In this document: positions 1 through 36,022 of the stretch, one piece after another
Numbering within the stretch: position 1 is the first letter of the stretch
Layout of the letters: each line of letters begins with the position of its first letter
DNA from: Actinomycetaceae bacterium
GTDB lineage: Bacteria > Actinomycetota > Actinomycetes > Actinomycetales > Actinomycetaceae
Assembly (NCBI GenBank): GCA_030532405.1
Contig: JAUNLF010000012.1
Span: forward strand, 1 to 37,864
DNA length: 37,864 bases
Reading direction: 5' to 3'
The notes under the pieces: generated by a model
What the model was told of the DNA's origin: nothing
Database searches by the model: none
Seen by the model: the letters and a program-made list of their open reading frames with translations, nothing else
Position numbers and translations under genes: made by a program

Positions 1-712
1 CGCCGCAGGGGGATTCAGACCCAAACTGACCACTCCCCCAACCGCACGGTATGGGCTGGTGACCCTCTACAGGTGATTCAGACCCAAAGTGGCCAACCCA
101 GCCCGCCCTCACACCCCCAAAAAATGATTCAGACCCAAAGTGGCCAAAACAGGGGTCAATTCGGGCAGTTCCCCTCACAATGGCCGCGCAAAGCACGCCC
201 TCAAACACCATTCAGACCCAAACTACCCAAAACAGGGCCCAATTCGGGCACTCTCCCTCTGAATCACTTTCAGCAGCCCGCCGTAGGAACACCATTGAGA
301 CCCAAAGTGCCTAAAACAGGGGTCAATTCGGGCAGTTCCCCTCACAATGGCCGCGCAAAGCACGCCCTCAAACACCATTCAGACCCAAACTACCCAAAAC
401 AGGGCCCAATTCGGGCACTCTCCCTCTGAATCACTTTCAGCAGCCCCGCGTACAGACACTATTCAGACCCAAAGTGGCTAAAACAGGGCCTAATTCTGAC
501 AGTTCCCCTCTGAATCAAAATTCGACAGAAACCAAACCGGCAGTTGGGGTCTGAATCGCAATTATTAACAGCACCCAAATGGGCAGATTCCGTCTGAATC
601 ACCCACAGATGCCACACCACCCGACACTTTGGGTCTGAATCACGCGTACACCAGAAACGAGGCCGACACTTTGGGTCTGAATCGCAATTTATAGCGCCAC
701 CCAACAGCCCCG
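1..712. repeat. Left copy of long direct repeat, made of 55-bp-family units
   Basis: This gene-free stretch is built from repeat units that start ATTCAGACCCAAA and end near CCCCTCTGAAT. They are joined by linkers containing CGCCCTCAAACACC. About 1-692 matches 4606-5339 with a few substitutions and unit-number differences, so the sugar ABC operon between them is flanked by direct repeats. The left copy starts at the window edge and may be truncated there. Overlapping open frames here are repeat translation and show no protein family. Confidence 0.9.
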
Positions 713-4572: not shown

Positions 4573-4605
4573 CATATAACCCCGGTTTGCCCGTGAACTA
4601 GCCCC

Positions 4606-5340
4606 GCCGCAGGGGGATTCAGACCCAAACTGACCACTCCCCCAACCGCACGGTATGGGATGGTGACCCTCTACAGGTGATTCAGACCCAAACTGACCAA
4701 CCCAGCCCGCCCTCACACCCCCCAAAAAAATGATTCAGACCCAAAGTGGCCAAAACAGGGGCTAATTCCGGCACTCCCCCTCTGAATCACTTTCAGCAGC
4801 CCCGCGTAGAAACACCATTCAGACCCAAAGTGGCCAAAACAGGGCCTAATTCCGGCAGTTCCCCTCACAATGGCCGCGCAAAGCACGCCCTCAAACACCA
4901 TTCAGACCCTAACTACCCAAAACAAGGGCCAATTCGGGCAGTTCCCCTCACAATGGCCGCGCAAAGCACGCCCTCAAACACCATTCAGACCCTAACTACC
5001 CAAAACAAGGGCCAATTCGGGCACTCCCCCTCTGAATCACTTTCAGCAGCCCCGCGTAGAAACACCATTCAGACCCAAAGTGGCCAAAACAGGAGCTAAT
5101 TCCGGCAGATCCCCTCTGAATCAAAATTCGGCAGAAACCAAACCGACAGTTGGGGTCTGAATCGCAATTATTAGCAGCACCCAAACGGGCAGATTCCGTC
5201 TGAATCACCCACAGATGCCACACCACCCGGCACTTTGGGTCTGAATCGCGCGTACGCCAACAACCAAACCGACACTTCGGGTCTGAATCACGCGTACGCC
5301 GACAACCAGGCCGACACTTTGGGTCTGAATCCCAATTATG
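4606..5340. repeat. Right copy of long direct repeat
   Basis: This starts with the same bases as window position 1 and keeps the same order of units through CCCACAGATGCCACACCACC and CACTTTGGGTCTGAATC. Inside, two near-identical 83-bp units (about 4855-5020) differ from the left copy, where the units are arranged differently. The final segment has an extra unit containing ACTTCGGGTCTGAATC. It ends about 40 bases from the pdtaS stop codon. Open frames across it are repeat translation. Confidence 0.9.
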
Positions 5341-7199: not shown

Positions 7200-7440
7200 A
7201 GCCCAGACCAGCGCGTCGCTAGCCCAAACTAGCAACGAACGTCTAGCTGACGGGACCGGAAGCGTGCAACCAGCGCGCGGCTGGCCCAAGAACGCCTGGC
7301 CGACGGGACTAGAAGCGCATAACCAGCGCGCGGCTGGCCCAAGAACGTCTGGCTGACGGGACCGGAAGCGTGCAACCAGCGCGCGGCTGGCCCAAAAACA
7401 CCTGGCCGACGGGACCGGAAGCGCGTAACTAGCGCGCGGT
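7200..7440. repeat. 53-bp imperfect tandem repeat, about four copies
   Basis: The unit contains ACCAGCGCGCGGCTGGCCCA followed by AAGAACGYCTGGCYGACGGG and RAAGCG. CAGCGCGCGG falls at 7271, 7324 and 7377, giving an exact 53-bp period, with more diverged copies on either side. Each unit holds the palindromic stretch CCAGCGCGCGGCTGG. It fills the spacer just before the DUF2505 gene. Confidence 0.85.
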
Positions 7441-16352: not shown

Positions 16353-17405
16353 TTAGAAGTCTAGGTAGCCTTCGCGGCCTCCCTGGTAGAAGGTGTCCGG
16401 GTTCGGAGTGCGCAATTCAGACCCATCCTGCCAACGCTGAACCAGGTCGGGATTTGGAATCAGCATGCGCCCCACGGCGATGGCGTCCATGCCAAGATCC
16501 GCCATTTTTTGCGCGTCCTCGAGCTGCGTAATCGTCTCGAACCCGTTGTTCATGACGAACGCGCCCTTCCAACGGTCTTTCAGATGCGCGGTGAGCGCGG
16601 CGTCCGGATTTCCGAGGACTGAAAGGTACGCCAGGGCAAGGTCTTCAACACCGTCAAGGAGGGCGTCATAGGTGGCGGTAGAGTCGGCGCCCGGCTCTTC
16701 GATCGCACCCTGCGCGCCAGTGTTCGGCGAGATTCGAACGCCCACGCGGTCCGCCCCAATAGCGGCCGCAACGGCGCGAACCACTTCCACACCGAATCGA
16801 GCGCGATTCTGCGGGCTTCCACCGTACTCATCCTCACGCAGATTCGTGGACGGGGCGAGGAACTGGTGGATCAAATAGCCATTAGCACCGTGGATTTCAA
16901 CGCCATCCAGCCCGGCCGCAATAGCGTTCTGCGCGGCCGTCACGTATTCCTGCACGACGTCCGGAATTTCATTGATATTGAGGGCGCGCGCCTCCTCAAA
17001 CGGGACGCGCCCCTGAGCGGTCATGAGCTGGCCCGTCGGAGTCGTCGCCGACGCTGACACCGGCTGCAAACCACCCGTCGTCAAACGGTGTGCAATGCGT
17101 CCCGCATGCATGAGTTGAGCAAAAATAAGCCCGCCCTCGGAATGCACGGCATCAGCAACTTTACGCCAACCCTCAACTTGCTCCGCGGTGTGAAGGCCCG
17201 GCGTATTTATGTACGCTTGACCGACTTTGGAAGGCTGGGTTCCCTCCGTGATAATGAGGCCAACGCCCGCGCGAAGCCGGTAATACTCCACGTTTAAATC
17301 GTTTGGCACGCCGTCAACTTCGGATCGATTACGCGTCATCGGCGCCATCACAATGCGATTCTTAGCCGTGTAGCGTCCGATCTTCACCGGTTCAAACAAA
17401 GTCAT
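16353..17405 (-). CDS. Old Yellow Enzyme family FMN ene-reductase
   Basis: A flavin-dependent NAD(P)H:alkene reductase of the NemA/OYE class, 350 residues from the ATG at 17405, which has GAGAGGA upstream. The frame is open for another 82 codons, but these are repeat-derived and Ser/Ala rich. Motifs are KNRIVMAPMTRNR near the N-terminus, TEGTQPSKVGQAY, QLMHAGRIAH, GLDGVEIHGANGYLIHQFL (read around residue 180), RVGVRISP and a C-terminal flavin-binding stretch ending GRMLIPNPDLV. The Tyr/His active-site pair appears to be HGANGY. The physiological substrate is unknown. The gene stands alone. Confidence 0.95.
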   Translation of the reverse strand: MTLFEPVKIGRYTAKNRIVMAPMTRNRSEVDGVPNDLNVEYYRLRAGVGLIITEGTQPSKVGQAYINTPGLHTAEQVEGWRKVADAVHSEGGLIFAQLMHAGRIAHRLTTGGLQPVSASATTPTGQLMTAQGRVPFEEARALNINEIPDVVQEYVTAAQNAIAAGLDGVEIHGANGYLIHQFLAPSTNLREDEYGGSPQNRARFGVEVVRAVAAAIGADRVGVRISPNTGAQGAIEEPGADSTATYDALLDGVEDLALAYLSVLGNPDAALTAHLKDRWKGAFVMNNGFETITQLEDAQKMADLGMDAIAVGRMLIPNPDLVQRWQDGSELRTPNPDTFYQGGREGYLDF

Positions 17406-17875
17406 CTTCGATCCTCTCAGAAGCGGCCATCTCAGTGCGCCGCGCGCGATTCTCGACGCGTGGTTCTTTCGGCCAGGCGCGGGAACTCGAACTACTGCTC
17501 GACGCGTGCTGCTTTCCCATGCGCGGGAACTCGAACTACTGCTCGAGGCGTGCTGTTTTCGGCCAGGCGCCCAAGCTGGAGCCACTTTCCAGTGTGCACC
17601 AAAGCCCGCGAGTTCACGACCGCGTGCGCGTAGGCATTTTCGGGCAGGCACCCAAGCTCAAGCCACTTTCCAGTGTGCACCAAAGCCCGCGAGTTCACGG
17701 CCGCGTGCGCGTAGGCGTTTTCAGGCAGGCACCCAAGCTCAAGCCACTTTCCAGTGTGCGCAAAGCCCACGAGTTCACGACCGCGTACGCATAAGCATTT
17801 TCTGACGCGCGTCCAAGCACGCCCTCATTTGCAATGAAAAAGGATTGCGCGAGAATGCGGCCTGCGAATGTCAGA
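17406..17875. repeat. 81-bp tandem repeat block upstream of OYE gene
   Basis: GCCACTTTCCAGTGTGC occurs at 17581, 17662 and 17743, an exact 81-bp period, with CAAAGCCCGCGAGTTCACG and CCGCGTGCGCGTAGGC in each unit. Just before it, GCGCGGGAACTCGAACTACT is present twice 51 bases apart. Because 81 is a multiple of three the block stays open in several frames, giving spurious repetitive peptides and the false N-terminal extension of the OYE frame. The OYE promoter must lie within or near it. Confidence 0.85.
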
Positions 17876-19714: not shown

Positions 19715-19757
19715 AAGGCCCGGTATTTCAACAAAACCGTTGAAATACCGGGCCTTT
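19715..19757 (+). terminator. Terminator of initiator tRNA
   Basis: AAGGCCCGGTATTTCAAC pairs perfectly over 18 bp with GTTGAAATACCGGGCCTT around a six-base loop, followed by TGTG. It starts seven bases after the tRNA. The T-run is short, but the long stable stem makes a terminator likely. Confidence 0.8.
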
Positions 19758-19856
19758 GTGTTACCCAGTTGCGAAACCGTTGAAACGCCGGGGCTTTGTG
19801 TTACCCAGTTGCGAAACCGTTGAAATGCCGGGCCATTGTGTTACCCAGTTGCGAAG
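19737..19856. repeat. 40-bp tandem copies of the terminator 3' arm
   Basis: CCGTTGAAATACCGGGCCTT, followed by TGTGTTACCCAGTTGCGAAA, is repeated at 19737, 19777 and 19817 with an exact 40-bp period. The copies carry small changes (AACGCCGGGGCTTT, AATGCCGGGCCATT). Only the first can pair perfectly with the 5' arm at 19715. Confidence 0.9.
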
Positions 19857-20024: not shown

Positions 20025-20470
20025 ATTCAGACCCAAACTGCCAACAGCTTGCAGCCATTGCGCCGCACAAAATGATTCAGAAGGGAACCACCCGAAACCA
20101 AGGGTAAAACCGCCACTATGGGTCTGAATGGTGCACACAACCCGCCCTCCAAAACACGATTCAGACGGGAACTACCCAAAACAAGGGGTAAAACCGCCAC
20201 TATGGGTCTGAATGGTGCACACAACCCGCCCTCCAAAACACGATTCAGACGGGAACTACCCAAAACAAGGGGTAAAACCGCCACTATGGGTCTGAATGGT
20301 GCACACAACCCGCCCTCCAAAACACGATTCAGACGGGAACTACCCAAAACAGGGGGTAAAACTGCCACTTAGGGTCTGAATGGTTCCCGGCAGCACCACC
20401 CCGGTCAACCACCGTGAGGGGAACTACCCGAAACAAGGGGTAAAACTGCCACTTTAGGTCGGAATCATAA
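20025..20470. repeat. 55-bp-family repeat array with 84-bp period
   Basis: At least three consecutive units are nearly identical. Each is 55 bp from ATTCAGACGGGAACTACC to ACTATGGGTCTGAAT, plus a 29-bp linker GGTGCACACAACCCGCCCTC-CAAAACACG. Unit starts at 20159, 20243 and 20327 give an 84-bp period. Diverged units flank them on both sides, to TTTAGGTCGGAATC near 20465. The period is divisible by three, which creates long but meaningless open frames on both strands. Confidence 0.93.
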
Positions 20471-20538
20471 TTAAACGGACGGCCGCCAGCAGCGGCGGCC
20501 GCATTCCTCCTCTCCCCCCCCGCTCTAGACAAGCAAGT

Positions 20539-20580
20539 CCCCCGGAAGTGGAACTGAATGCTCAGTTCAACTTCCGGGGG
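20539..20580. repeat. Long near-perfect stem-loop
   Basis: The arms CCCCCGGAAGTGGAACTGA and TCAGTTCAACTTCCGGGGG pair over 19 positions with one mismatch around loop ATGC. It lies past the 3' end of the minus-strand membrane-protein gene ending at 20804, but neither side has a T-run. It may be a terminator-like structure for that gene or an unrelated palindromic element. Confidence 0.75.
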
Positions 20581-20663
20581 AACAGTTCAGCAAGAGCAAC
20601 CACGCCCGCCGGCTACACCCGCGGGTGCGGGCGACGAGAAACCGGCCGATACGGCAACTCCTA

Positions 20664-20797
20664 CGAAACAGACGCCAGGCCCGTCCTCCTACACGACGTA
20701 GCCAGCGACTGGCACTTCCCCTCACAATCACTATGTGTGTGTGAGAGAGAGAGGGGCGCACCACCCGTGCCGAGAAACAGACACCAGGCCCGCCCTC
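20664..20797. repeat. Direct repeat pair and GT/GA microsatellite
   Basis: GAAACAGACGCCAGGCCCGT recurs about 104 bases later as GAAACAGACACCAGGCCCGC, each followed by CCTC. Between them is a TGTGTGTGAGAGAGAGAGG microsatellite (about 20733-20755). No gene is seen in this spacer. Confidence 0.6.
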
Positions 20798-20803
20798 GGG
20801 GAT

Positions 20804-21844
20804 TTAACTGACGCGAGTCACGTCGTAGTGGCGATCGGTGGTAAAGCCGGCTTCCTCCGGGGTTTTGCCGATGCGGTGGGCGATGCGGGCTTGGACTTCG
20901 TCGGTGGCGGTCTCTGCGATGAGGCGCGGGTTGTCGAAGGCGTCGGCGTAAAGCTCGGCCTTGAACGGGTTGCGCTTCGTGGTCCAGATCCGCCACACGT
21001 GGTAGACGAACAGGCCCGCATTGAACAGCAGTGCCAGCAACGAGATCGTGAACATCGCGGTCGTGTTGTGACTGTGGTCGTGCGCGAACTGCGTGTCGTA
21101 CGTGAAGTGCGGGAACGTCAACACGAACGCCGACCAGAACGTCAGCGTGTACGCGCGGTATTGAATCCACGCGCCGCGGCCCATCTTCATGAACGCGGGA
21201 ATCGTACACGCCGCCAGCAGCGCGACACCGGAGTACCACGCACGATCCGACAAACAGTTGTACACGTAAGCGAAGTTCCACAGGTCGTACGCGATAATCC
21301 ACCAGATTGTCAGGTCCGCCCAAATGATGTGCTTGTCCTTCTTGGACACGTAAATGCCCACCCAACCGGCGATCATCAGCAGGTTCAAAATGCCGGCGAT
21401 CCCGTTCATGATGTTCCAGGGGCCACCCCACGTCCACAGTCCGTTCACCGGGTCGGTGCCGTGGATTCCGTAGCATTGGAAGTCACGAATCACGGCCTCC
21501 ATGATATTTACCGCCAAAATGAGCGGCGGAATCAATAGGTACACCTTGTTTCGACGCAGCTTCGGGAAGTACTGCAATGCGACCAATGACAGTGACCCGA
21601 GGAGGGCGGAGTACTGCTTCACGATCGCGAACCAGCCGGCGCTTTGGGTGCCCTCTGTGGAGTACGGCCACCAGAAAATCGTCAGTAGCACTGGGATCAC
21701 GATGAACAGTGCGATTGCTGCCCATTTGCTTCGAACCGCGAGCCACGCCAAGAACGCCAATACGGCGATTACGAGGGCGAGCATCGCGTAATCCCACCAC
21801 TCGCCAGCCTCAAAGAAGAACAGCGTGGGTTGCATCGGTAACAC
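20804..21844 (-). CDS. DUF5692-like polytopic membrane protein (A)
   Basis: A 346-residue membrane protein with about nine helices. It carries NIMEAVIRDFQCYGIHG (about residues 108-124), WNIMNGIAGILNLLMIAGWVGIY, then AYDLWNFAYVYNCLSDRAWY and ACTIPAFMKMGRGAW. These features match my memory of the Pfam family DUF5692, which has no known function. The cytosolic tail ends DRHYDVTRVS. It begins at the GTG at 21844, with GAGAGGACG inside the end of the upstream gene and almost no gap, so the two are translationally coupled. A relative is encoded divergently at 23242. The family name needs a profile search. Confidence 0.8.
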   Translation of the reverse strand: MLPMQPTLFFFEAGEWWDYAMLALVIAVLAFLAWLAVRSKWAAIALFIVIPVLLTIFWWPYSTEGTQSAGWFAIVKQYSALLGSLSLVALQYFPKLRRNKVYLLIPPLILAVNIMEAVIRDFQCYGIHGTDPVNGLWTWGGPWNIMNGIAGILNLLMIAGWVGIYVSKKDKHIIWADLTIWWIIAYDLWNFAYVYNCLSDRAWYSGVALLAACTIPAFMKMGRGAWIQYRAYTLTFWSAFVLTFPHFTYDTQFAHDHSHNTTAMFTISLLALLFNAGLFVYHVWRIWTTKRNPFKAELYADAFDNPRLIAETATDEVQARIAHRIGKTPEEAGFTTDRHYDVTRVS

Positions 21845-21846
21845 GG

Positions 21847-22971
21847 CTAATCGTCCTCTCCAAGGGTCGCGCCGTCAGGCACGGAGTCACCAGCCGCCGG
21901 TTCTGCGGTGAACTGAGCGGCAACAGCGGCCGCTGCGCGCTTGGCAGCCTCAGGGTTTTTGCCCCAGCCGGGCAGGTAAGTTTTCTCGACCTTCTGGCGG
22001 ATTTGCTCATCCCAGCTGAACTCGGGTTCAGACCAGCCGTCGAAGTACTCCTCATCAACCGTGTCCGCCCAAGGAGTTCCCGGACCCGTCGGCGGCCAAT
22101 TCGGATTATCCGTTACAGGAGGACGAATCTCGGCGACTGCCGGCGCCTGACGCCCATAGCGGAACCACTGGGTTTGAGTCTCTTCAAACAGCGGCGTACC
22201 AGACCAGCGGCTCGGAGGGGTTTCAGACCCAAAGAACCGTCCTCCTAGGAATCCACGCATGAATTTCGAATGCCACTGTTCCTTCTTACGGAACTCTGCC
22301 ACGCGCTTCACGTACATGTTCTGCATGTGCGCCATGACACCGCCGATCAGTTCAATGTTCACCCAGTTCAACGCATTCGCCCACGCAGTGTCCGGTTCGA
22401 GGCCGATGCGCCAATGGTTGATGAGGCGGCAACGCTCGCCCTTCAACGGGACAACGTAGAAACACCACGCTGCCGCATAATTCTTCATGAATGGGAAGCG
22501 GAACGCGTACGCTCCCGGGGCGGCCGGCGGGTTCTTCGTGTCCACCCACTGCACCAAGTACTTGCCCGGAACCACGTCAGCCCACTCCATGGACATACCG
22601 TGATAGTCGAACGCCGCAACATCGCCAGGTGCGATCGCGTCGGGGGTCTGATACTCCTCCTGAATCTCGTAATGGTTGTAGAAGGGCAGACGGGCAAAGA
22701 CACGCTCGAGGAATTCAGACGAGAACGACCCCGACTTCTGCACACCAATCTGCTTGAAAATACGGTAGACCGCGTATGCGGGCGCATCAATGTCAATGGC
22801 GTACGTTGACGACCGACCATTACTGTAATTCAAGTCGATAATGTCGTCCGCGGGATAGACCCACTCTTGCTCAGCCTTAGTCCCCTTACCGCTGAGCTGA
22901 GAGAAGTAAACCATTCCTCCCATCGCCGCCACTGACGCTAAGCCCGCGGCCTTCGCTACTGTCTTCCCCAT
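21847..22971 (-). CDS. Large SRPBCC/START-like protein, anchored N-terminus
   Basis: A 374-residue protein of unassigned function. From the ATG at 22971 it starts MGKTVAKAAGLASVAAMGGMVYF, a likely membrane anchor. Residues about 45-240 look like an SRPBCC/polyketide-cyclase-like domain: IDIDAPAYAVYRIFKQIG (strand and helix), WADVVPGKYLVQWVDT, WCFYVVPLKGERCRLINHWRI and a long C-terminal helix (LIGGVMAHMQNMYVKRVAEF). The remaining 120 residues are Pro/Trp rich with no recognised domain. A fragment of the 55-bp repeat encodes FGSE near residue 249. The frame continues to 23049 (TTG) with ATG 23034 as an alternative start. A TATACT box at 23000-23005 supports 22971. Confidence 0.72.
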   Translation of the reverse strand: MGKTVAKAAGLASVAAMGGMVYFSQLSGKGTKAEQEWVYPADDIIDLNYSNGRSSTYAIDIDAPAYAVYRIFKQIGVQKSGSFSSEFLERVFARLPFYNHYEIQEEYQTPDAIAPGDVAAFDYHGMSMEWADVVPGKYLVQWVDTKNPPAAPGAYAFRFPFMKNYAAAWCFYVVPLKGERCRLINHWRIGLEPDTAWANALNWVNIELIGGVMAHMQNMYVKRVAEFRKKEQWHSKFMRGFLGGRFFGSETPPSRWSGTPLFEETQTQWFRYGRQAPAVAEIRPPVTDNPNWPPTGPGTPWADTVDEEYFDGWSEPEFSWDEQIRQKVEKTYLPGWGKNPEAAKRAAAAVAAQFTAEPAAGDSVPDGATLGEDD

Positions 22972-23241
22972 CGAAGAAGCCAAAACAATCACCTGCCAAA
23001 GTATAGGTAAACTCGACCTCAAAAAATCGAGCATAATTTCATAGGACAATCTTCAAACTACCAAAGGCATCTTTCATTTCAGCCTCAAATTGAGCGGATA
23101 TCCGTTCAGGTTTTTCGCGGTATTCTGCACAAAAGCCACTCTGCCACGAAACGAACACCGCGTCTATAAACTCAAACTAGCTTTTGTAAAGAAGCACCCA
23201 AATCTTTTCTAACCCATACAGTTTTATAGAAAGCCGGAAAA
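22972..23241. promoter_or_regulatory. Divergent control region with central palindrome
   Basis: This AT-richer region separates the divergent module genes. Near its middle is GAGCGGATATCCGTTC (23092-23107), whose core CGGATATCCG is a perfect 10-bp palindrome and a plausible operator. On the minus strand TATACT (23000-23005) could be the -10 of the SRPBCC gene. On the plus strand TATAGA (23225-23230) sits 11 bases before the ATG at 23242. The -35 boxes are unclear. No regulator gene lies nearby. Confidence 0.5.
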
Positions 23242-24600
23242 ATGGATTCCCTCTTCCTTTGGGAGGTAGGCCCTCTGCGGGTATGGATAATCTGGCTTGT
23301 CGTATTCTTTGCGCAGATCGCTATCGCAGAGATAAACCGACGGTGGAACTGGACGATCTTCGCCCTGTGGACCGTTGGAGGCATCATCATGATGCCGTAC
23401 GCGGCAACAGTCGGAGAACCCGTATTCGGATGGTTCCCCTTTGGCAAATACGTACTAATGGTCATCACCGCGACCATGACCGGAGCGCTCCTCGTCTTCG
23501 GCAAACGCAACCCGCAGGCCGCCAGGCGCTACGCCTTCTGGTTTGGCGTGGCACTGTGGATCGGCCTCGTTTTCAACATCATGGAAGCAAACATTCGCGA
23601 TGTTGTTATCTACTTCCAGGCCGACGTGTACTACCAGTGCGCAGCAGACTGGGAGTGCTTGAAGACAATCAACGACACGCACGCCGCCGACATGCTCTCC
23701 GGGCTTCCCGAAGCGCGCGGTATCACCGCACCCCTATTGTCGACCGAATGGTACCAGGCGCTCGCCGCTAACTTCTCCGCCGCCAACGTCGGTATCGACC
23801 CGGCAACCGGGTTCCGCACGATTGGTGGATACTGGAACCTAATGAGCGCGGCCGCAGGCCTCCTGAACTGCATCACGGTGACCGGCCTGGGCAAGATTAT
23901 CGTCACCTCGCAGGGAAAGAAGAAGGTTCAAGGCCTGCTCTGGGTTGACCAGGTTTGGCCGTGGATCATCGCGTACGACCTGTGGAATCACGCGTTCTTG
24001 TACAACGCGTTGGCTGACTACACGTGGTATTGCACGCTCGCACTGCTACTGGCATGCACAATCCCAGCGTTCACGTGGGCGAAGGGCCAGTGGATCTGGT
24101 TCCGCTGCTTCACGCTCGTGTTCTGGATCAGTTTCTACAACTGGTTCCCATACCTATCCACCCCACCGGGCGCGATGCACAACTTCGCCACGATGGATCC
24201 GAACGCAAACATTTTCAGCTCCGGCCTCGCGCTCGCGTTCAACATTGGCGTGTTCATCTACTGGCTGTACAAAGTCATCAAACACCGCCGCAACCCGATC
24301 ACAAACGCGCTGTTCTTCGAGATGGGCGCATTCCGCAACCTCGTGAAGGATCACTGCGACGACAAGGACAAGTACTTCCTCACCGACATGATCCCCGAAA
24401 CCCCGCGCGAACTCGGCTTCGAACCCGAATCCGACACGCCACCCATAGACGGCTACGTGGGCAACATGCCGTGGTGGAAGATCGACAAACGCTGGCCCAA
24501 ACTACGCACACCACTGTCCGCCGATCCGAAACTCGTGGAGAAGGGCGTCAAGTCCGACCCCAAGTGGGACGTCACACGCAGGCATTCAGACCCGAAGTGA
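23242..24600 (+). CDS. DUF5692-like polytopic membrane protein (B)
   Basis: A 452-residue relative of protein A. Shared features in order are NIMEANIRDVVIYF (about residues 113-126), GYWNLMSAAAGLLNCITVTGLG, AYDLWNHAFLYNALADYTWY and ACTIPAFTWAKGQW. It carries an extra loop after the NIMEA motif (residues about 127-190, with two Cys) and a longer cytosolic tail (about 365-452) rich in Pro, Asp and Trp. The tail contains KWDVTR, like DVTR at the end of protein A. The last codons and TGA belong to a repeat unit. The ribosome binding site is weak, with CCGGAAAAA before the ATG. Transcribed divergently from A and the SRPBCC gene. Confidence 0.78.
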   Translation: MDSLFLWEVGPLRVWIIWLVVFFAQIAIAEINRRWNWTIFALWTVGGIIMMPYAATVGEPVFGWFPFGKYVLMVITATMTGALLVFGKRNPQAARRYAFWFGVALWIGLVFNIMEANIRDVVIYFQADVYYQCAADWECLKTINDTHAADMLSGLPEARGITAPLLSTEWYQALAANFSAANVGIDPATGFRTIGGYWNLMSAAAGLLNCITVTGLGKIIVTSQGKKKVQGLLWVDQVWPWIIAYDLWNHAFLYNALADYTWYCTLALLLACTIPAFTWAKGQWIWFRCFTLVFWISFYNWFPYLSTPPGAMHNFATMDPNANIFSSGLALAFNIGVFIYWLYKVIKHRRNPITNALFFEMGAFRNLVKDHCDDKDKYFLTDMIPETPRELGFEPESDTPPIDGYVGNMPWWKIDKRWPKLRTPLSADPKLVEKGVKSDPKWDVTRRHSDPK

Positions 24601-24666
24601 CCCCCCTGCGGGGATTCAGACCCGAAGTGACCCCCTCTGCGGGCATTCAGACCCGAAGTGCCACGG
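24584..24666 (+). repeat. Short tandem repeat spanning a stop codon
   Basis: ATTCAGACCCGAAGTGACCC occurs at 24584 and 24614, and a variant at 24645, with spacings of 30 and 31 bases separated by CTGCGGGG-type linkers. The first copy supplies the last codons (HSDPK) and the TGA of the membrane-protein gene. The others are untranslated. Confidence 0.85.
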
Positions 24667-24885
24667 CGCTTCCCAACGCAGTGAGGGCGAGCTTGGTTCC
24701 TCCCACTAAACCACCAACCCTCCCGGTGAGGTGCTTTTCAGCACGGATGTCCGCCAGGGGCTCCGGCGGGAGCGGTTGCCCGACTAGCTAGCGGCCGCTC
24801 CTGCGGTAGCTCCCGCAGGGACGGCGTTGGTTGGGACTCGGGTGGGGCGGCGAATCCGGCTGCGGCCGGATTCGCTCCCAAAAAA
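24667..24885. other. Spacer with two GC-rich hairpins
   Basis: CCTGCGG-TAGCTC-CCGCAGG (24800-24819) and a perfect 11-bp stem GCGAATCCGGC/GCCGGATTCGC with loop TGCG (24850-24875) follow the membrane-protein gene. The second is followed by CCCAAAAAATG, which is not a T-run in the plus direction. They may slow or end transcription from the left, but the evidence is structural only. Confidence 0.55.
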
Positions 24886-25370
24886 TGATTCAGACCCTAA
24901 GTGGCAGAAATTGGGGGTTTTCCGCCACTTAGGGTCTGAACGCTTCCCAGCAGCATTCGCCGGCCAAACCATTCAGAGGGAAACTGCCCAAAACAGGTGC
25001 CAATTCAGCCACCTTGGGTCTGAATCAGGTTGCCAGCCCGCCCTCCAAAACACGATTCAGACGGGAACTGCTCAAAACAGGTGCCAAAACCGTCACTTAG
25101 GGTCTGAATGGTTCCCAGCAGCATCCGCCAGTCAAACCATTCAGAGGGAAACTGGCAGAAACAACGGGCAAATCTGCCACCTTGGGTCTGAATCAGGTTG
25201 CCAGCCCGCCCTCCAAAACACGATTCAGACGGGAACTGCTCAAAACAGGTGCCAAAACCGTCACTTAGGGTCTGAATGGTTCCCAGCAGCACCCGCCCTC
25301 CAAAACACGAATCAGACGGGAACTACCCAAAACAGGTGCCAATCCAGCCACTTTGGGTCTGAATGGTGGT
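24886..25370. repeat. 55-bp-family repeat array
   Basis: This begins with a hairpin unit (17-bp perfect stem TTCAGACCCTAAGTGGC, 24889-24905, with its complement at 24924-24940). Alternating units then run from ATTCAGAGGG or ATTCAGACGG to GGGTCTGAAT. A composite of two units plus linkers (TTCCCAGCAGCATCCGCC and CAGGTTGCCAGCCCGCCCTC) is duplicated with a period of about 170 bases. No gene lies between here and 25542. Confidence 0.92.
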
Positions 25371-25541
25371 TTTGGGCGCGCGCTCGCACCGGCGGAGGAC
25401 CCAGCCCGCCCTCACAAATCAAAACCAACGGACCGTTTCAGAACTTAAGCGGACTTTGGGACCAAAACTGTTTATTCTTAGGTTAAGCACAGGGCACAGA
25501 AAGGTTGCTGCACGTCGCCCATCCGGCGTGCGCGCAGGTCT

Positions 25542-26492
25542 ATGTTCAAAGGGAAAGTACTTGTAGCTCTACTGGTAGGAGCTGTCGTCGCAGTGCTCGG
25601 CATGGCATTCGCGGCGATTTTCATCGTCGGAAACTCCGGCCAAGCGTGCGCGGAAGCACGCGAACGGTTCGAAACCTCAAAGGAACAGCTGGAGGGCGAG
25701 GCGACGCGTGCGCGGACAACGCTCAACTATTTGAACGACGAGAACTCATTCGGATACCAAGAAACCGAAGAAGGCTCGCGACTAATCGCCTCACTACGCG
25801 ACGCGGTCAGCGCGATTCAGAACCTTGAAGCCTCCGAGTGTTCATCCCGAATACAAGCCGAAAAGCTCTCCGACGATGCGAATTTGATAAACGAGGACGC
25901 AGCTCGGCTTGCCGACACCAACAGGCAGGTGACCGAAGGGCTAATCGTTCACGCCTCCGGGAAAATCACAGAAACCGCTAACGGTCACTTGAAGAAAATC
26001 GAGGAATCACGCAAAGTCGCGGCAGAAAGCCTCGCAAAAGCACACGACTCCGAAGGATACGGACAAGTCGACGGATCACTCGAACTGCTCATGAACGCGC
26101 AACACATGGTAGACAGCCAGGAAGCACCACCCACGATTCCCACTGAGATCGCAACGATCGAAGACTTGCGCGCCGCGAGCACCGCCCTCGACAAACTAGC
26201 CGAACAGGCATCCGGCGCAGAGCACTCCGCGCAGGCACTCAAACAATCTATAGACAAATACGCGGGCGAACTAGAAAAACAACTCGCCCAACAGAAAGCC
26301 GAAGAAGAAGCCGCACAACAGCAAGAAGACGCCGGTTGCACGGACGTCATCGTAGTGGCAGAACAATGCACGAGCTACGAGCTGGTCCACTACCTCGCAT
26401 CAAACGGCTGGTCCGTTGGCGAAGCGATTGCGGACGCACAGGCCGAGAACTGCCAGCGGATAGCGCCAGCTCCAAACCCATGCTCTAGGTAA
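25542..26492 (+). CDS. Membrane-anchored coiled-coil protein
   Basis: A 316-residue protein with an uncleaved-type N-terminal helix (about residues 5-30: VLVALLVGAVVAVLGMAFAAIFIVG), then a Cys (GQACAEA). Long Glu/Ala/Lys-rich helices follow, likely coiled coil, over about residues 35-265. The region about 240-265 is Gln/Glu dense (EKQLAQQKAEEEAAQQQED). The C-terminal 50 residues hold four Cys (GCTDV, EQCTSY, ENCQRI, NPCSR) and could form a small disulfide-bonded domain outside the cell. I do not recognise a family. The ribosome binding site is weak. It stands alone between repeat blocks. Confidence 0.75.
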   Translation: MFKGKVLVALLVGAVVAVLGMAFAAIFIVGNSGQACAEARERFETSKEQLEGEATRARTTLNYLNDENSFGYQETEEGSRLIASLRDAVSAIQNLEASECSSRIQAEKLSDDANLINEDAARLADTNRQVTEGLIVHASGKITETANGHLKKIEESRKVAAESLAKAHDSEGYGQVDGSLELLMNAQHMVDSQEAPPTIPTEIATIEDLRAASTALDKLAEQASGAEHSAQALKQSIDKYAGELEKQLAQQKAEEEAAQQQEDAGCTDVIVVAEQCTSYELVHYLASNGWSVGEAIADAQAENCQRIAPAPNPCSR

Positions 26493-26916
26493 CCCGCCAG
26501 GCCGACTGCAACAACGGAGGTTCAAGGCGGCGACGCCCTCCCCAAAACGTGATTCAGACGGGAACTACCCGAAACAGGTGGTAATTCCGTCACTTTGGGT
26601 CTGAATGGTTTCCGGTAGCGCCTCCCCGCGCAACCATTCAGAGGGTAACTACCCAAAACAGGGGCCAAAACCGTCACTTTGGGTCTGAATGGTGGTCCCA
26701 GCCCGCCCTCCAAAACACCATTCAGAGGGGAACTGCCCGAAACAGGGGCCAAAACAGCCACTTTGGGTCTGAATCATAATTTTGTAGGGACGGCCGCCAG
26801 ACGCGGCGGCCGCGCCCTCCCCCGCGAGCGCACAGTAAGCTTGAGGTAACGACCGGTGGCGCATGCGGCATACTCGGCCGGCCCGAGCCCGCGCCACCCG
26901 AGATGAGAGGCAAACC
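26493..26916. repeat. Three complete 55-bp repeat units and YchJ leader
   Basis: Units at 26552-26606, 26636-26690 and 26720-26774 are each exactly 55 bp from ATTCAGA to TCTGAAT and all in the same orientation, separated by 29-bp linkers, two of them containing CCGCCCTCC or CGCCTCCCC. They give the clearest definition of the family. The remainder (26775-26916) is GC-rich, with GACGGCCGCCAGACGCGGCGG, and contains the leader of the next gene with GAGAGGCAAACC before its ATG. Confidence 0.9.
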
Positions 26917-27332: not shown

Positions 27333-28076
27333 ATGCCTGCGCGTAACATTTTCAATCGATTGATGAGGACGGTCGCGCGTACGGCGCGTTCTGAAGTGGG
27401 ACGGCAGGCTCGCAGGGCTGTGGAAACACAGCTTGACAGTTGGCTTGGGGAAAACTCCGGCAACCGGACGCCGCGACCCGGCAGCCAGAGACAAACACAA
27501 TACAACCCTGGGAGCCCGACGCCGCGACCCGACAACCGGACGCCGCGACCCGGCGGCCAGAGGCAAACACAAAATAACCACGGTAACCGCGACGGGTATA
27601 AGGCGCCGCAAAAGCAAGGGCGTAGCCGCGGCTCGAACACGGCCGCCGGCGCCGACCACCATTCAGAGGCATACTACCTACCGCGCGATGCGGCGTTGCC
27701 GAACTTCTCTTACACGCCGCAGCAGAATCACCGGGCTGATCCGGGCGAGGTCGTCTGGACGTGGGTTCCGTTCGAGGAGGACGCGTCGCGCGGCAAAGAC
27801 CGCCCCGTGTTGGTGCTCGCGGAGACGGACCGCGGGGTCATCGCCTCGCAAATGACCAGCCGCGATCGCACCGCCGATTTTCTGCCTGAAGACCGATATG
27901 GGAGGGCGTGGCTCGACATCGGCACGGGGTCGTGGGACCGCGAGGGCCGCAACTCCGAGGTCAGGTTGGACCGCCTCCTCATGATTCCGCGCGGATCGAT
28001 GCGCCGAGAGGGCGGCCGCCTCGACAAAGCTACCTTCCTGGAAGTCGTCGCCAGAATCCGCGAAATGCACGGATAA
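27333..28076 (+). CDS. MazF/PemK-like protein with low-complexity N-terminus
   Basis: A 247-residue protein. Residues about 135-247 resemble an actinobacterial PemK/MazF-type domain (GEVVWTWVPFEEDASRGKDRPVLVL, then TSRDRT, IGTGSWDREGRNSEVRLDRLL). MazF toxins are small ribonucleases, but this subgroup is much longer and is usually found without an antitoxin. Here too no antitoxin gene is adjacent. Residues 1-30 form a basic helix. About 40-110 is a repeated Arg/Pro/Gln/Asn tract with NRTPRPG and QRQTQ each twice, encoded by tandem DNA repeats. ATG 27333 follows AAAGGA. Ribonuclease activity is uncertain. Confidence 0.78.
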   Translation: MPARNIFNRLMRTVARTARSEVGRQARRAVETQLDSWLGENSGNRTPRPGSQRQTQYNPGSPTPRPDNRTPRPGGQRQTQNNHGNRDGYKAPQKQGRSRGSNTAAGADHHSEAYYLPRDAALPNFSYTPQQNHRADPGEVVWTWVPFEEDASRGKDRPVLVLAETDRGVIASQMTSRDRTADFLPEDRYGRAWLDIGTGSWDREGRNSEVRLDRLLMIPRGSMRREGGRLDKATFLEVVARIREMHG

Positions 28077-28382
28077 TTCGGGTTCCGAGGGCGGCTCGGT
28101 GCTGTTGGCATTTTGGGTCGGAATCAAAATCCCGGGTGCCGCCATCGGCGCACGTGAAGAATCAACACCAGCCCCGAGGTGCCGCCATCGGCGCACGTGA
28201 AGAATCAACACCAGCCCCGAGGTGCCGCCATCGGCGCACTTGAAGAATCAACACCAGCCCCGAGGTGCCGTCCTCCGCGCGTCGCGTCTTGCTGCTAAGC
28301 TGCTGGCAGCCGGAGGCCCGTCCTCCGCGCCGATTCGCGCGCACCTGCTCGCGATCCGCCGTTTTCCAGGCGAAAGTGACCC
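28077..28382. repeat. 43-bp tandem repeat before the helicase gene
   Basis: GCCGCCATCGGCGCACGTGA followed by AGAATCAACACCAGCCCCGAGGT starts at 28138, 28181 and 28224, with a broken fourth copy at 28267, an exact 43-bp period. Before it is TTTTGGGTCGGAATC, a fragment of the 55-bp family (about 28110). The rest up to 28382 is the helicase leader, with CCGTCCTCCGCGC twice and no obvious ribosome binding site. Confidence 0.88.
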
Positions 28383-31300
28383 ATGGACGAGTTTAGGCAG
28401 CTGGCCCCCGGCCTCTACGAGACGATCATCGACGCCGGACTGCAGTCCGCCCTCGAACACTACGGGGAGCGCGCCGTCCAACATGCCGTCGACACTCCTG
28501 ACTTCCCGTACGTAGTTTCGAAGTACGTGGCCGGGCGCGTGCAGGACGCGCTCGCCCAGAGCGATGACGCGGAAAAGTTTGAGCTTACCGACCGGATCCT
28601 TCAAGTTTTAGATGATTTTGGAGGGCGGAATGCGGAACCTCAGGCGGCGCAGAACCGCTCGGACGCGGCGTATGCCCGCGGGTTGGTCGTGCAGGGTAAC
28701 GCGGCGCAGATGCTGACCGAAATCAAGAACTCACCGAAGGTGCCCGCCCTCGTACGCCCGGAAACGCCCCTGAATGATGCGGCGCTGCTCACCAACGCGG
28801 AGCACGACCCGTCGATCCAGGCGGAGCTAGCAAAAGAGTTGCCGTCCGCGCAGAGGGTGGACGCCCTCATCGCATTCATTAAATGGACGGGGATTCGCAC
28901 GATTGCGACTGAATTGGCGGATTTGAGGGCGCGCGGGGTGCCGTTGCGGATTATTACGACCACGTACACGGGGGCGACGGAGCGGCGCGCGTTGGATCGG
29001 CTCGTGCGCGAGTTTGGGGCGCAGGTGAAGATTAGTTATCGCACGCGCTCGACCCGGCTGCATGCGAAGGCGTGGCTGATTCACCGGAATACCGGGTTTC
29101 ACACGGCGTTCGTGGGGTCGTCGAACCTGTCGGCGGCCGCGATGCAGGACGGTTTGGAGTGGAATGTGCGGTTGGCGAGGGCGAGCACTCCGTCGGTGTT
29201 TGCCAAGTTTGAGACGACGTTCAACTCGTACTGGGAGTCGCCCGCATTCGAAACTTATGATCCCGACCGTGATGCGGCGCGGCTGGACGCCGCCCTTGCG
29301 CAGGCTCGGTGGTTCGGCAAACCTGGTGCGGATGGCGTTTTGGGTCTGAATGGTTCAGAGGGCGGCACCGCGGGCGCGTTGGTCGGCCCGGATGGGCAGC
29401 CTGTTTCCGCCCTCAATTTCACGGCGCTGGATATTAGGCCGTACCCGTACCAGCAGGTGATGCTGGACGAGCTCGCGTACGAGCGTTCAAAGGGCCACCA
29501 CCAAAACCTCGTCGTCGCTGCCACGGGGACGGGCAAAACCGTGGTTGCCGCCCTCGACTATAGAAATCTGCGGACCGATTTTGAACGGGAGCATGGTCGC
29601 CTCCCGCGCACACTTTTTGTGGCGCATCGTGATGAGATTTTAAAGCAGTCGATGAGGACGTTTAGGGACGTGGTGAAGTCCTCGAAGGTGATTTGGTCAA
29701 CGTCTACCGGAGGGCGCCTCGCGGACCTCGATGAGGGCACGTTCCACCGTTATGACTCGATCGCGTTTGCGAGCATCCAGTCGCTGCATGAAAAGGCGCT
29801 GGGCGAGATCGGGCGAGACTTTTTCGACATTGTCATCATCGACGAGTTTCACCACGCGGAAGCGCGCACCTACCGCCGCGTCATGGAGCACTTTAAGGCG
29901 CGCGAGCTGGTCGCCCTCACGGCTACGCCAGAGCGCGGCGACGGCGTGAACGTTGCGCTCGAGTTTTTCGGCGGGCGCGTCGCAACCGAACTGCGCTTGT
30001 GGGACGCACTGGAAGAAGGCTTGCTCTCTCCGTTCCACTATTTCGTGAGCTTCGACGGCACGGACCTGTCGGGCGTGAAGATGCGCGGCGGCGACTACGT
30101 AACCAGCGAGCTTTCCAACGTTTTGACGGGAAACGACGCGCGCGTGCGCATGATCGTGGCGGCAATGCAGGACAAGATCATCGACCCATCGACCATGCGC
30201 GCCATGTGCTTTTGCGTGGACATCAATCACGCGCGATACATGGCGGAAAGCTTCCGCAAGTTCGGGTTCCGCGCCGAGTACGTCACGTCGCGAGAGTCCT
30301 CCATGCCCCGCGAGGACGCCCTGCACGCCCTCAAAAATGGGGAAATACAAATCATTTGTTCGGTCGACATTTTCAATGAGGGCGTGGATGTGCCGGACAT
30401 TGACACGGTGCTGATGCTCCGGCCGACGCAGTCTTCAACGATTTTCTTGCAGCAGCTTGGGCGCGGCTTGCGGCTGTCGGATTCGAAGTCTGTGCTTACG
30501 GTTTTGGATTTTGTGGGCAATCAGAATGAGGACTTCAGGTTTGATTTGAAGTTGCAGGCGCTCACCGGCACGTCGCGTAGGAATCTGACGAAGGCTGTCG
30601 AGTCTGGTTTCGGGCATTTGCCCGCGGGGTCGCAGATTATTTTGGAGGAGAAGCCCCAGCAGGTTGTCCTCAAGTCCATCAGGCAAAGCCTGCGGATCAC
30701 GACGCCGAAGCTTCCCTCTGAGATTCGCCGAACCGCGGAATCTGTGGGTGTTGGGGATGTTCGCGACTACCAGTTGACGGATTATTTGCATGACGCGCAG
30801 CGCGACTTGGCGGATATTTACAGTCGCGGGGCGTACGCGGGCAGGCCGGTTTCGTGGCGGCGCTTGAGGCACTGGGCGCACACGGGTAGTGACGCCGCGG
30901 CCGACGGGTTTGAGGACGTGCGCGCGCGGCTGCGGGCTTTGGCGCACGTGGCCGATCCGGAGCGGATTGACACCTACCTGCGTCTGGTGTCGGAACCGAA
31001 CCTGCGCTACGACGTTTTGTCGGCGCGAGAGAAGCTTTACGCGCACATGCTGATGTATTCATTTTGGCCGCAGGGTGCGCGCGATGGTGAAAAGTTCCGG
31101 TCGGTGGATTACGCGTTACAGGTTTTGAGGGCGACTCCGGGGCTCACGGACGAGCTGACGCAAATGTTCCGGGCCGCGAGCGACCGTGCAAAACGGTTGT
31201 ATGAGGCGCCCGCGGGGGCACTCGGTGTTTTGAGTCCGCTGAAGGTCGGGGCTAAGTACAGTCGCGAGGAGCTTCTAGCCGGCCTGGGTCAAGGGTTTGA

Positions 31301-31715: not shown

Positions 31716-32160
31716 GCCGGGGCCGTGGCCGGCCGGTGCGGTTGGCTTGCGGGGCTGGGCGGTGGGCTTGCGGGGCTGGCCGGTGCGGTTGGGTGGCTGG
31801 GCCGGCCGGTGCACAGCCCGCAGCACCGACGCCCGACACTTTGGGTCTGAATCCCCACTTACAGGGCCCCACTCTCCCACACCCAGGTACTTTGGGTCTG
31901 AATTACCAACTACCGTGGTACTACCAGCTTCCGCATGGTACTTCGGGTCGGAATAGTTGATGGCTGTCACAGCCGCCCGCCGTCCGGCACTTTACTTCTG
32001 AATCCCCACGTACAGGGCCCCACTCTCCCGCGCCAGGACACTTCGGGTCTGAATGGCGCGACGGGTTTGCGGGGTCGGGCACTTTGGGTCTGAATGGCGC
32101 GACGGGCTTGTGGGGCCCGGCACTTTGGGTCTGAATGGCGCAACCAGAAAATTCACGATT
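31716..32160. repeat. GC-rich repeats and 55-bp-family half-units
   Basis: First comes CTTGCGGGGCTGG / GCCGGTGCGGTTGG repetition (31720-31815). Then at least six half-units ending in CTTTGGGTCTGAAT or a variant follow (near 31846, 31893, 31942, 32040, 32085, 32128). TACAGGGCCCCACTCTCCC appears twice, about 150 bases apart, each followed by one of these ends. No complete 55-bp unit is clear. 32161-32244 is the AT-richer leader of the transporter gene. Confidence 0.8.
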
Positions 32161-34815: not shown

Positions 34816-35158
34816 GCTACGCAGGCTATACAGCGCGCGCCTTGTAGGGCTAGACATCTGGGCGCCTTGCGGGGAGGCGCCACCTCACCGAGCCGTCACT
34901 CATTTCCATGCGGGCAGGCTCCACCTCACCGAGCCGTCACTCGTTTCCGGGCTGATTCGAAGCGAAAACCTGCTCGCCCTCGTGAATGGAAAATATGCAT
35001 GGAAGTGCGCGAACGGGACGCAACACGTTTGGGTTTTTTGAGAAACGGCAGGTGCGGCGGACTCGAGTGTGGAAATCTGGCATTATGGGTCTGAATCGTG
35101 GTGGGAGCATGAGCTAACACCGGTGGAGCGTGGCTTCGCACTTGAGCGGGGAGGGATC
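34816..35158. other. Spacer with short direct repeats and TM2 gene leader
   Basis: CACCTCACCGAGCCGTCACT occurs twice (about 34879 and 34925), each followed by CRTTTCC. Near 35085-35097, ATTATGGGTCTGAATCG is a half-unit of the 55-bp family, placed just before the TM2 gene leader. GGGGAGGG precedes the GTG chosen for that gene. No other gene is seen. Confidence 0.5.
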
Positions 35159-36022
35159 GTGGCGGACTCGAATGGGCCTAGGCGTCCGAACTATGGGCGT
35201 CCGGAATGGCAGCAAGGCTGGGATGCGAATGCGGCCGGTGAGAACTCGTACGATCGTGGCATTGACCGTTGGAGTGATCGGAGTGGCGGGCAAGAGCGTC
35301 GCTGGGACCGCCCGAACGACAACGACATGAGCAACGGCTGGGATTCTTACCGCGGCGACAATCGTGGCAATACCCCGAATTCTTACGGCAGCCAGCACCC
35401 GAACGAGCATTGGAATGGCCGCGGAGGCCAGGACCCGAACAACCAGTGGAATCAGGGTGAGCGCTGGAACACTCACGACGGCCATAACTCTGGCAACGCC
35501 TACCGGGACAGCCGGCGGGCAAATAACGATTCAGACGGGAACTACCGCTCCCAGAACCGCAATTCAGACGGGAACTACCGCGCCCAAAACCGCGATTCAG
35601 ATGGGAACTACCGGGACGCGCAGACGTCACCTCGTTCAAACAGCTATTCTGCGGAGAACTACGCCCGCTACGAGCCTCCCCGAGCGCAGTGGGAGGAGGC
35701 TTCCTACCGGCCTGGAGCGCCCAACTTCCAGCAGGGTCCGCGTTCGTCGCAGCAGTCTCGCCCGCCAAGTTTCCAACAAGTGCCGCAGCGCAACGCGATT
35801 ATCGCGGGGTTGCTGGGGATTTTCCTGGGCGCTTTCGGGGCGCATAACTTCTACACGGGCCGATACAAAATCGCGGTGGTGCAACTGGCTTTGACCGTGT
35901 TGTCGAGCTTCGCCCTCGCATTCATAACCGGGCTTTGGGGGATCATCGAAGGCCTCATGTACCTTCTGGCTTCCACCCCCTACTACGAGCAAGACGGCTG
36001 GGGCCGCCCGCTCTCACGCTAA
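35159..36022 (+). CDS. TM2 domain protein with repetitive hydrophilic N-terminus
   Basis: A 287-residue protein. The C-terminal 75 residues are a TM2 domain: two helices (IIAGLLGIFLGAFGAHNFYTG and VVQLALTVLSSFALAFITG) with the family Gly-x-x-Asn/Phe-Tyr signature, then WGIIEGLMYLL. The long N-terminal part is Asn/Arg/Gly/Asp/Trp rich and probably disordered. Around residues 124-156 it contains three 11-residue repeats (SDGNYR core) encoded by fragments of the 55-bp repeat. I take the GTG at 35159 after GGGGAGGG. An upstream GTG at 35069 would add 30 residues translated from repeat sequence. Role unknown. Confidence 0.85.
   Translation: MADSNGPRRPNYGRPEWQQGWDANAAGENSYDRGIDRWSDRSGGQERRWDRPNDNDMSNGWDSYRGDNRGNTPNSYGSQHPNEHWNGRGGQDPNNQWNQGERWNTHDGHNSGNAYRDSRRANNDSDGNYRSQNRNSDGNYRAQNRDSDGNYRDAQTSPRSNSYSAENYARYEPPRAQWEEASYRPGAPNFQQGPRSSQQSRPPSFQQVPQRNAIIAGLLGIFLGAFGAHNFYTGRYKIAVVQLALTVLSSFALAFITGLWGIIEGLMYLLASTPYYEQDGWGRPLSR

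Follow-up and report, generated by a model that had tools for sequence, protein, structure and literature searches.

The stretch of DNA analyzed here (the window; 37,864 bp, contig C17:1-37864 of a 2.23-Mb, 33-contig Gleimia genome, hereafter G000, from a little-studied human-associated bacterium) carries dense arrays of a short repeat. The basic module of these arrays is a non-palindromic half-site of about 18 bp, GATTCAGACCCnAASTGnC, which is smaller than the 55-bp unit reported in a first-pass annotation of the same sequence. The direct spacings between half-sites follow the 10.5-bp helical period in G000 and in a second species (G003). On balance, the arrays are probably cis-acting phased binding arrays of a DNA-binding architectural protein that have grown by local duplication, and not a 55-bp mobile element. 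This reading is favored over a 55-bp transposon because of the lattice spacing, the conservation of the sites, the half-sites that lack a partner, and the orientation rule of the arrays.

Half-site module, spacing, and orientation

The 55-bp repeat family with ATTCAGA/TCTGAAT ends that the first-pass annotation described is borne out by its abundance, which is far above chance. The window contains 74 copies of ATTCAGA compared to an expectation of 2.6, and none of 100 shuffles reached such a count. The inverted-end pattern ATTCAGA-N36-46-TCTGAAT, with total lengths of 50–60 bp tolerated, was found at 28 places genome-wide (27 at 55 bp and one at 51 bp), of which 17 are in the window. The four units named in the annotation (26552-26606, 26636-26690, 26720-26774, and 20159-20213) measured exactly 55 bp again, all of the loci that it listed (1-712, 4606-5340, 20025-20470, 24584-25370, 26552-26774, 28110, and 31840-32140) contain copies, and the 84-bp period of its arrays was recovered independently by Tandem Repeats Finder. 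These 55-bp units are almost exclusively located inside arrays, where alternating inverted copies stand in tandem (e.g., strings such as +-+-+-). Two details require correction. In the 16-letter unit start ATTCAGACSGGGAACT, one base is superfluous, as the four units begin with ATTCAGACGGGAACT, ATTCAGAGGGTAACT, or ATTCAGAGGGGAACT. A linker length of 29 bp recurs at many places, but CCGCCCTC is present in only some of these linkers.

Each 55-bp unit consists of two inverted half-sites that are 19 bp apart, and half-sites also occur singly or in direct series. Because the segment 31835-32136 has seven half-sites in a single orientation without any 55-bp unit, and because 24584-24660 is a direct series at 30–31 bp, the 55-bp unit cannot be the basic module; what stands of the earlier description is a repeat family with short inverted ends that occupies spacers and forms arrays. 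A stack of 243 unique half-sites yielded the non-palindromic motif GATTCAGACCC-n-AA-S-TG-n-C, with the generalized form GATTCAGA-SSS-n-AA-S-TG-n-C. Most positions of this motif were prescribed by the search pattern itself; the exceptions are G0 (71%) and C18 (98%), neither of which the pattern demanded. The position weight matrix (PWM) of the half-site has 83 matches in the window, compared to 0, 1, and 2 in three Markov-simulated windows. Across the G000 loci that were read (the window and L020-L027), about 317 matches were found, a few of which will be due to chance. The two halves of a unit mostly differ in sequence type. Among non-redundant 55-bp units, a CCC-type half is opposite a GGG-type half in 16 of 19 cases in G000 (p=0.003) and 11 of 15 in G003 (p=0.055), such that full pairing is usually avoided. 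A near-perfect inverted pair of 51 bp is located at G000 C4:48794.

For the analysis of spacing, one representative was kept per set of intervals that were within 2 bp in length and had at least 60% identity. In G000, direct neighbor spacings cluster at 31, 41–42, 51–54, 63, 83–84, 125–126, and 208–209 bp (in G003 also at 94 bp), convergent spacings at 37 and 47–48 bp, and divergent spacings at 46–47 bp. At a period of 10.5 bp, the Rayleigh R of the direct spacings is 0.55 in G000 (n=69) and 0.67 in G003 (n=21). The corresponding values are 0.90 (n=26) and 0.97 (n=18) for convergent spacings and 0.92 (n=30) and 0.97 (n=14) for divergent spacings. Against a null model with ±5 bp jitter, all three classes of G000 have p<5e-5 and the direct class of G003 has p=0.00005. 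When the intervals of 39–44 and 81–86 bp were removed, the direct spacings remained phased (p=0.0015 in G000, n=45; p=0.02 in G003, n=13).

The larger arrays read like ++++-+-+-+----, in that their outer half-sites face inward. Among arrays with six or more half-sites, with duplicated arrays left in, this is the case for 145 of 174 outer-third half-sites in 22 arrays of G000 (permutation mean 86.7, maximum 105 in 2000) and for 51 of 64 in 12 arrays of G003 (permutation mean 32.1, maximum 47). The half-sites in the window are distributed as follows, with the strand given where one applies.

13..682: array of 16 half-sites with the orientation +++-+-+-+-+----- (PWM half-site map)
4617..5330: array with 17 half-sites, +++-+-+-+-+------, in the spacer of a convergent gene pair (PWM half-site map)
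20025..20465: 10 half-sites in an array that includes four 55-bp units, at 20075, 20159, 20243, and 20327 (unit and half-site searches); the half-site map also joined to this array a distant 11th site, which ends at 20728
24584..25364: array of 15 half-sites, with a direct series at 30–31 bp followed by 55-bp units at 84-bp pitch; the first half-site overlaps the final codons of the open reading frame (ORF) 23242-24600
26552..26774: array in which six half-sites form three 55-bp units, repeated every 84 bp
31835..32136, minus strand: seven same-orientation half-sites without a 55-bp unit, upstream of ORF 32245-34245, which may encode a BCCT transporter
27661..27678, plus strand: solitary half-site, score 21.4
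28107..28124, minus strand: solitary half-site, score 21.9
29334..29351, minus strand: half-site in the PLD/helicase-like gene 28383-31715, within a 25-codon segment that is missing from the G003 ortholog
35529..35612, plus strand: three half-sites within the SDGNYR coding repeat of a gene with a TM2 domain
35079..35096, minus strand: half-site, score 25.6, close to the beginning of the TM2-domain ORF that holds 35529..35612
16415..16432, plus strand: weaker half-site, score 20.1, inside ORF 16353-17651

The window is rich in short-period repeats, and other tandem repeats are located at 7237-7439, 17556-17802, 19734-19855, and 28131-28270 (53, 81, 40, and 43 bp, respectively). Additionally, a PemK/MazF-like domain protein (27333-28076) adjoins the PLD/helicase/DUF3427 protein (28383-31715), and the two are possibly a small defense neighborhood.

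Distribution, conservation, and copying

The first-pass annotation had proposed a search of the whole genome and close relatives, and this search located the family on five further contigs of G000 by the strict pattern and in related Gleimia. All 77 strict half-sites in G000 are confined to six of the 33 contigs (C4, C9, C17, C18, C20, and C29), and C16 carries one looser match among the matches listed (100 of 169 places). With dif and parS search patterns, a dif candidate was found on C31 and a parS cluster on C12, neither of which is among the contigs with strict half-sites. Similarly, the strict half-sites of G010 are on its contigs C1 and C2, with dif and parS both on C3. A link between the arrays and proximity to parS or dif was rejected, as the arrays are on other contigs. 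The candidate dif core ATAATGTAYATTATGTCA (G000 C31:100025) was found in all 11 genomes of the genus. By comparison, the half-site motif is carried by four of the 11 Gleimia genomes and by none of the 202 other genomes of the family (4/213 in total). When the whole collection was searched with a 20-base version of the 55-bp unit, nine stretches were hit, all in records of Actinomyces urinae, Gleimia europaea, and Actinomyces sp. AS08sgBPME_431; records very near G000 may be excluded from this search. Plasmid and phage records had no match to one 491-base array stretch (window 24880-25370), and a literature search on the repeat family found no description of it. The array neighbors with Pfam matches are mostly housekeeping proteins, including YchF, TypA/BipA, citrate synthase, Maf, NAPRTase, oligopeptide ABC, succinyl-CoA ligase, NAD-dependent DNA ligase, GatB, and UvrD-type helicase.

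Spacers were compared for eight gene pairs, with G000 lacking a value for one; lengths are distances from the end of one tblastn match to the next, so that small genes may be counted in them. In the six spacers without acquired genes, G005 has 0 half-sites in 162–1039 bp, and G000 has 5–16 half-sites in 612–2745 bp. In the remaining spacer, G000 has 18 half-sites in 4741 bp with extra genes, compared to 0 half-sites in 433 bp in G005. The gene order is kept in G005. Among the compared spacers, those of G010 (two) and G002 (three) have 2–4 half-sites each, and those of G007, G009, and G001 have 0 where measured. Empty orthologous spacers, which the first-pass annotation had suggested seeking, exist in G005. 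Arrays are present in spacers that correspond between G002 and G010, and between G000 and G003 at the sucD spacer. The sucD spacer has six half-sites in G003 and 16 in G000.

In the species pair G010 and G002, half-sites have diverged less than the intervening DNA. Over ten paired stretches, with half-sites called in G010, identity is 91.8% in half-sites (526/573; 92 positions unaligned) and 81.6% between them (1201/1472; 253 positions unaligned). In one of the short arrays of G010 and G002, which was read by eye, each unit has the degenerate form GTGAGGGG as its other half.

Whole arrays have near-duplicates. The arrays at 1-683 and 4605-5289 have 87.8% identity over 689 bp and flank a sugar-transporter-like operon, and those at L022 13907-14254 and 17678-18025 have 98.6% identity over 508 bp and flank an S51 peptidase and a DcuC-type carrier. 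The latter gene block is missing at the corresponding place in G005, G010, G002, G007, G009, and G001. Such arrays may provide places for homologous recombination through which genes are acquired.

The half-sites inside genes fall in several reading frames. A coding origin of the arrays was rejected on this ground and because 31, 53, and 55, unlike 84, are not multiples of three. An in-frame 25-codon segment with one half-site is missing from the G003 helicase ortholog, and a segment of about 70 residues with two half-sites is for the most part missing from the G005 aminotransferase. Separately, a protein at L023 8492-9898 with a sub-threshold MTES_1575 endonuclease-like match has five in-frame half-sites, which encode SDPKRQ-like peptides in low-complexity stretches.

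Proposed role and competing explanations

Under the favored reading of phased binding arrays, a sequence-specific DNA-binding protein would recognize the half-site. Neighboring half-sites tend to be whole helical turns apart (3, 4, 5, 8, and so on), and bound molecules would therefore lie on one face of the DNA and be able to touch. Inward-facing half-sites form the borders of the larger arrays, and the A/T-G/C alternation of the 55-bp unit is as expected in bent or wrapped DNA. Between transcription units, the protein would most likely build a bent or wrapped nucleoprotein body on every array, and these bodies would organize or insulate the array-bearing part of the chromosome. The arrays would have spread by duplication of units and whole arrays, perhaps with some copying of pieces. 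A bolder and doubtful extension is that a chromosomal domain is packaged by a dedicated sequence-specific wrapping protein, with intergenic arrays of up to 17 in-phase sites at an eight-turn, 84-bp pitch as nucleosome-like or boundary bodies. This system would have evolved in one Gleimia clade, spread from spacer to spacer, and been lost wholesale in one lineage.

Several observations weigh against phased binding arrays. The analysis identified no protein that binds the arrays. As for the phasing, a distance of 37 bp accounts for 56 of 73 convergent pairs in G000 and 47 bp for 41 of 52 divergent pairs; because one or two distances dominate, the high R of the inverted classes reflects a fixed geometry more than a lattice. 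When each distinct distance was counted once, the phasing weakened to p=0.027 (direct), 0.009 (convergent), and 0.040 (divergent) in G000 and p=0.003 (direct) in G003. The spacings in G010 and G002 are mostly 82–85 bp, with a few others (112, 120, 216, or 238 bp) off the lattice, and these genomes therefore give no independent support for phasing. Their arrays are also short and often in one orientation throughout, and the series of spacings is identical in only three of the ten G010/G002 pairs, with the rest differing in distance or half-site number. The A/T blocks of the linkers are out of phase with those of the 55-bp unit. By rough gene calls, arrays are present in convergent, tandem, and divergent spacers, which argues against a simple operator role; an operator regulon was rejected on this basis. 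In the coding regions, the site-bearing in-frame segments of two unrelated genes, the helicase-like gene (window 29310-29400) and the aminotransferase gene (L021 7890-8010), share 61 bp at 77% identity. In addition, 13 solitary or in-gene half-sites match arrays mostly over 17–28 bp, with the longest match per site being 20–73 bp. The longer matches and the shared 61 bp suggest that pieces longer than a half-site may have been copied. Finally, G005 has 0 half-sites in 40 kb by PWM and 0 by the strict pattern in its 89%-complete genome. In a midpoint-rooted tree of four proteins, G005 is sister to G002 and G010 (ultrafast bootstrap 100) and nested among the carriers. The system is therefore dispensable and lost in G005, or was gained twice; loss is favored because the other species have arrays at corresponding places.

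A mobile element similar to the repetitive extragenic palindromic (REP) sequences and bacterial interspersed mosaic elements (BIMEs), or to miniature inverted-repeat transposable elements (MITEs), mobilized by a transposase in trans, is rather unlikely as an explanation. The inverted ends, the constant 55-bp length, the many copies, and the empty orthologous spacers in G005 all agree with it. The site-bearing in-frame segment that is present in one of two sister species and resembles a segment of another gene (61 bp at 77%) is in line with mobility as well, and the mismatch between CCC and GGG halves recalls the bulge in the stem that E. coli REPs require (PMC8266576). However, PF01797 (Y1_Tnp), the family of the REP-associated tyrosine transposase (RAYT) that the first-pass annotation had suggested seeking, has no match in any of the 11 Gleimia genomes (the control was detected in 5/14). 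The genome-level transposase searches covered PF01797 and PF09299 (TnsB/MuA); the latter gave no match, but its control was silent too, so this result is uninformative. Pfam found transposase families in none of 60 array-neighbor proteins (50 from G000 and 10 from G010; five of the 60 matched nothing), and GTAG or CGTC tags are absent from all 112 ends of 56 G000 units, as judged from 16-base stretches around each end. Moreover, the 55-bp units are nearly confined to arrays, half-sites in direct series are phased, half-sites can lack a partner, and arrays occupy corresponding spacers in G002/G010 and, at sucD, in G000/G003. The earlier idea of a tiny element that is mobile or REP-like is thus poorly supported. 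A REP origin (PMC8266576, PMC2817692, PMC3733652) accounts for the mosaic and the mismatched stem, but its transposase and tag were not found. Tyrosine recombinases were considered separately as a species-matched factor and rejected, as they number 2–6 per genome and do not track array presence.

It is also unlikely that the arrays are gyrase platforms, in which BIME-2-like strong gyrase sites would let GyrA C-terminal domains wrap the phased blocks and gyrase absorb intergenic supercoils. The 55-bp unit has A/T blocks at positions 2, 12, and 22 (mirrored at 34, 44, and 54 in the symmetrized profile) that alternate with G/C at about one helical turn, and mean A/T power at 10.5 bp is 13.2 in 22 arrays compared to 1.1 in 227 background segments. 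Yet this power drops to 2.6 when half-sites are masked, which is below other harmonics of 84 bp, and the out-of-phase linkers led us to reject an A/T phase that runs along the whole array. The near-invariant bases of the half-site (C18 at 98%) exceed the needs of indirect readout. Furthermore, gyrase is to our knowledge universal, whereas half-sites are restricted to four species; a gyrase platform accounts for the A/T-G/C rhythm of the unit, but neither for the strict motif nor for this restriction. The gyrase motif in E. coli is about 130 bp long with a flank GC content that varies at 10.75 bp, and gyrase prefers BIMEs (PMC6379681). A strong gyrase site would call for alternation of A/T and G/C at about 10.7 bp over about 130 bp; in the Gleimia arrays, such alternation is seen in the 55-bp unit but not in the linkers.

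A non-functional satellite, in which an 84-bp (eight-turn) tandem repeat arose by chance, expanded by slippage and recombination, and was the parent of the other spacings, is quite improbable. Such an origin would suit the 84-bp periodicity, the sum of 31 and 53 bp, the whole-array duplications, and the fast change in copy number at the sucD spacer. It is at odds with the phasing of non-redundant direct spacings outside 39–44 and 81–86 bp, the better conservation of half-sites than of intervening DNA, and the presence of half-sites inside genes in several frames. Very improbable are RNA-level hairpins acting as terminators or mRNA 3'-end protectors: inverted pairs exist, one of them near-perfect (the 51-bp pair on C4), and several arrays are near gene 3' ends, but the halves are mostly unpaired at the SSS tract, direct series form no hairpin, some arrays are in divergent spacers, and an Rfam scan of the window matched one tRNA and nothing else.

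If the arrays are indeed phased binding arrays, they would be a lineage-restricted and dense form of such sites that is confined to part of the chromosome among core genes. A close relative with the same gene order but no arrays would be a natural experiment on array function, and a repeat family with the appearance of MITEs could be binding sites under selection for spacing.

Comparison with known systems

RAYT-associated BIME/REP sequences are similar to the Gleimia arrays in being short, imperfect palindromes that occur in tandem and alternate in orientation, in spacers, with a mismatched stem and a variable copy number. The Gleimia arrays differ in that no RAYT was found in the genus, no GTAG is present at unit ends, half-sites also occur alone, direct spacings are helically phased, the polarity is inward, and the arrays are confined to a part of the chromosome.

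The matS/MatP system of E. coli likewise has a short site whose copies are concentrated in one region of the chromosome, amid core genes. The matS site is described as 13 bp long with 23 copies in 800 kb (PMC3330122). In comparison, about 317 PWM matches were counted in the G000 loci that were read; these form dense arrays, and the dif candidate is on a different contig. The strong gyrase site of phage Mu shares the phased A/T-G/C alternation with the 55-bp unit; unlike that site, the Gleimia arrays have a strict motif, many copies, and linkers that are out of phase.

Plasmid iterons are non-palindromic sites of about 20 bp in helically phased series, a description that also suits the Gleimia half-sites. 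However, no replication initiator was found among the 60 array-neighbor proteins scanned, the parS cluster is on a different contig from the arrays, and half-sites occur in both orientations.

The TAACTGA repeats of Beggiatoaceae are reported as intergenic series of a short motif whose binder is unknown, with some inside reading frames (PMC4679880), and in these respects they resemble the Gleimia arrays. They differ in having another motif of 7 bp, and the passages on these repeats do not mention helical phasing (PMC4679880).

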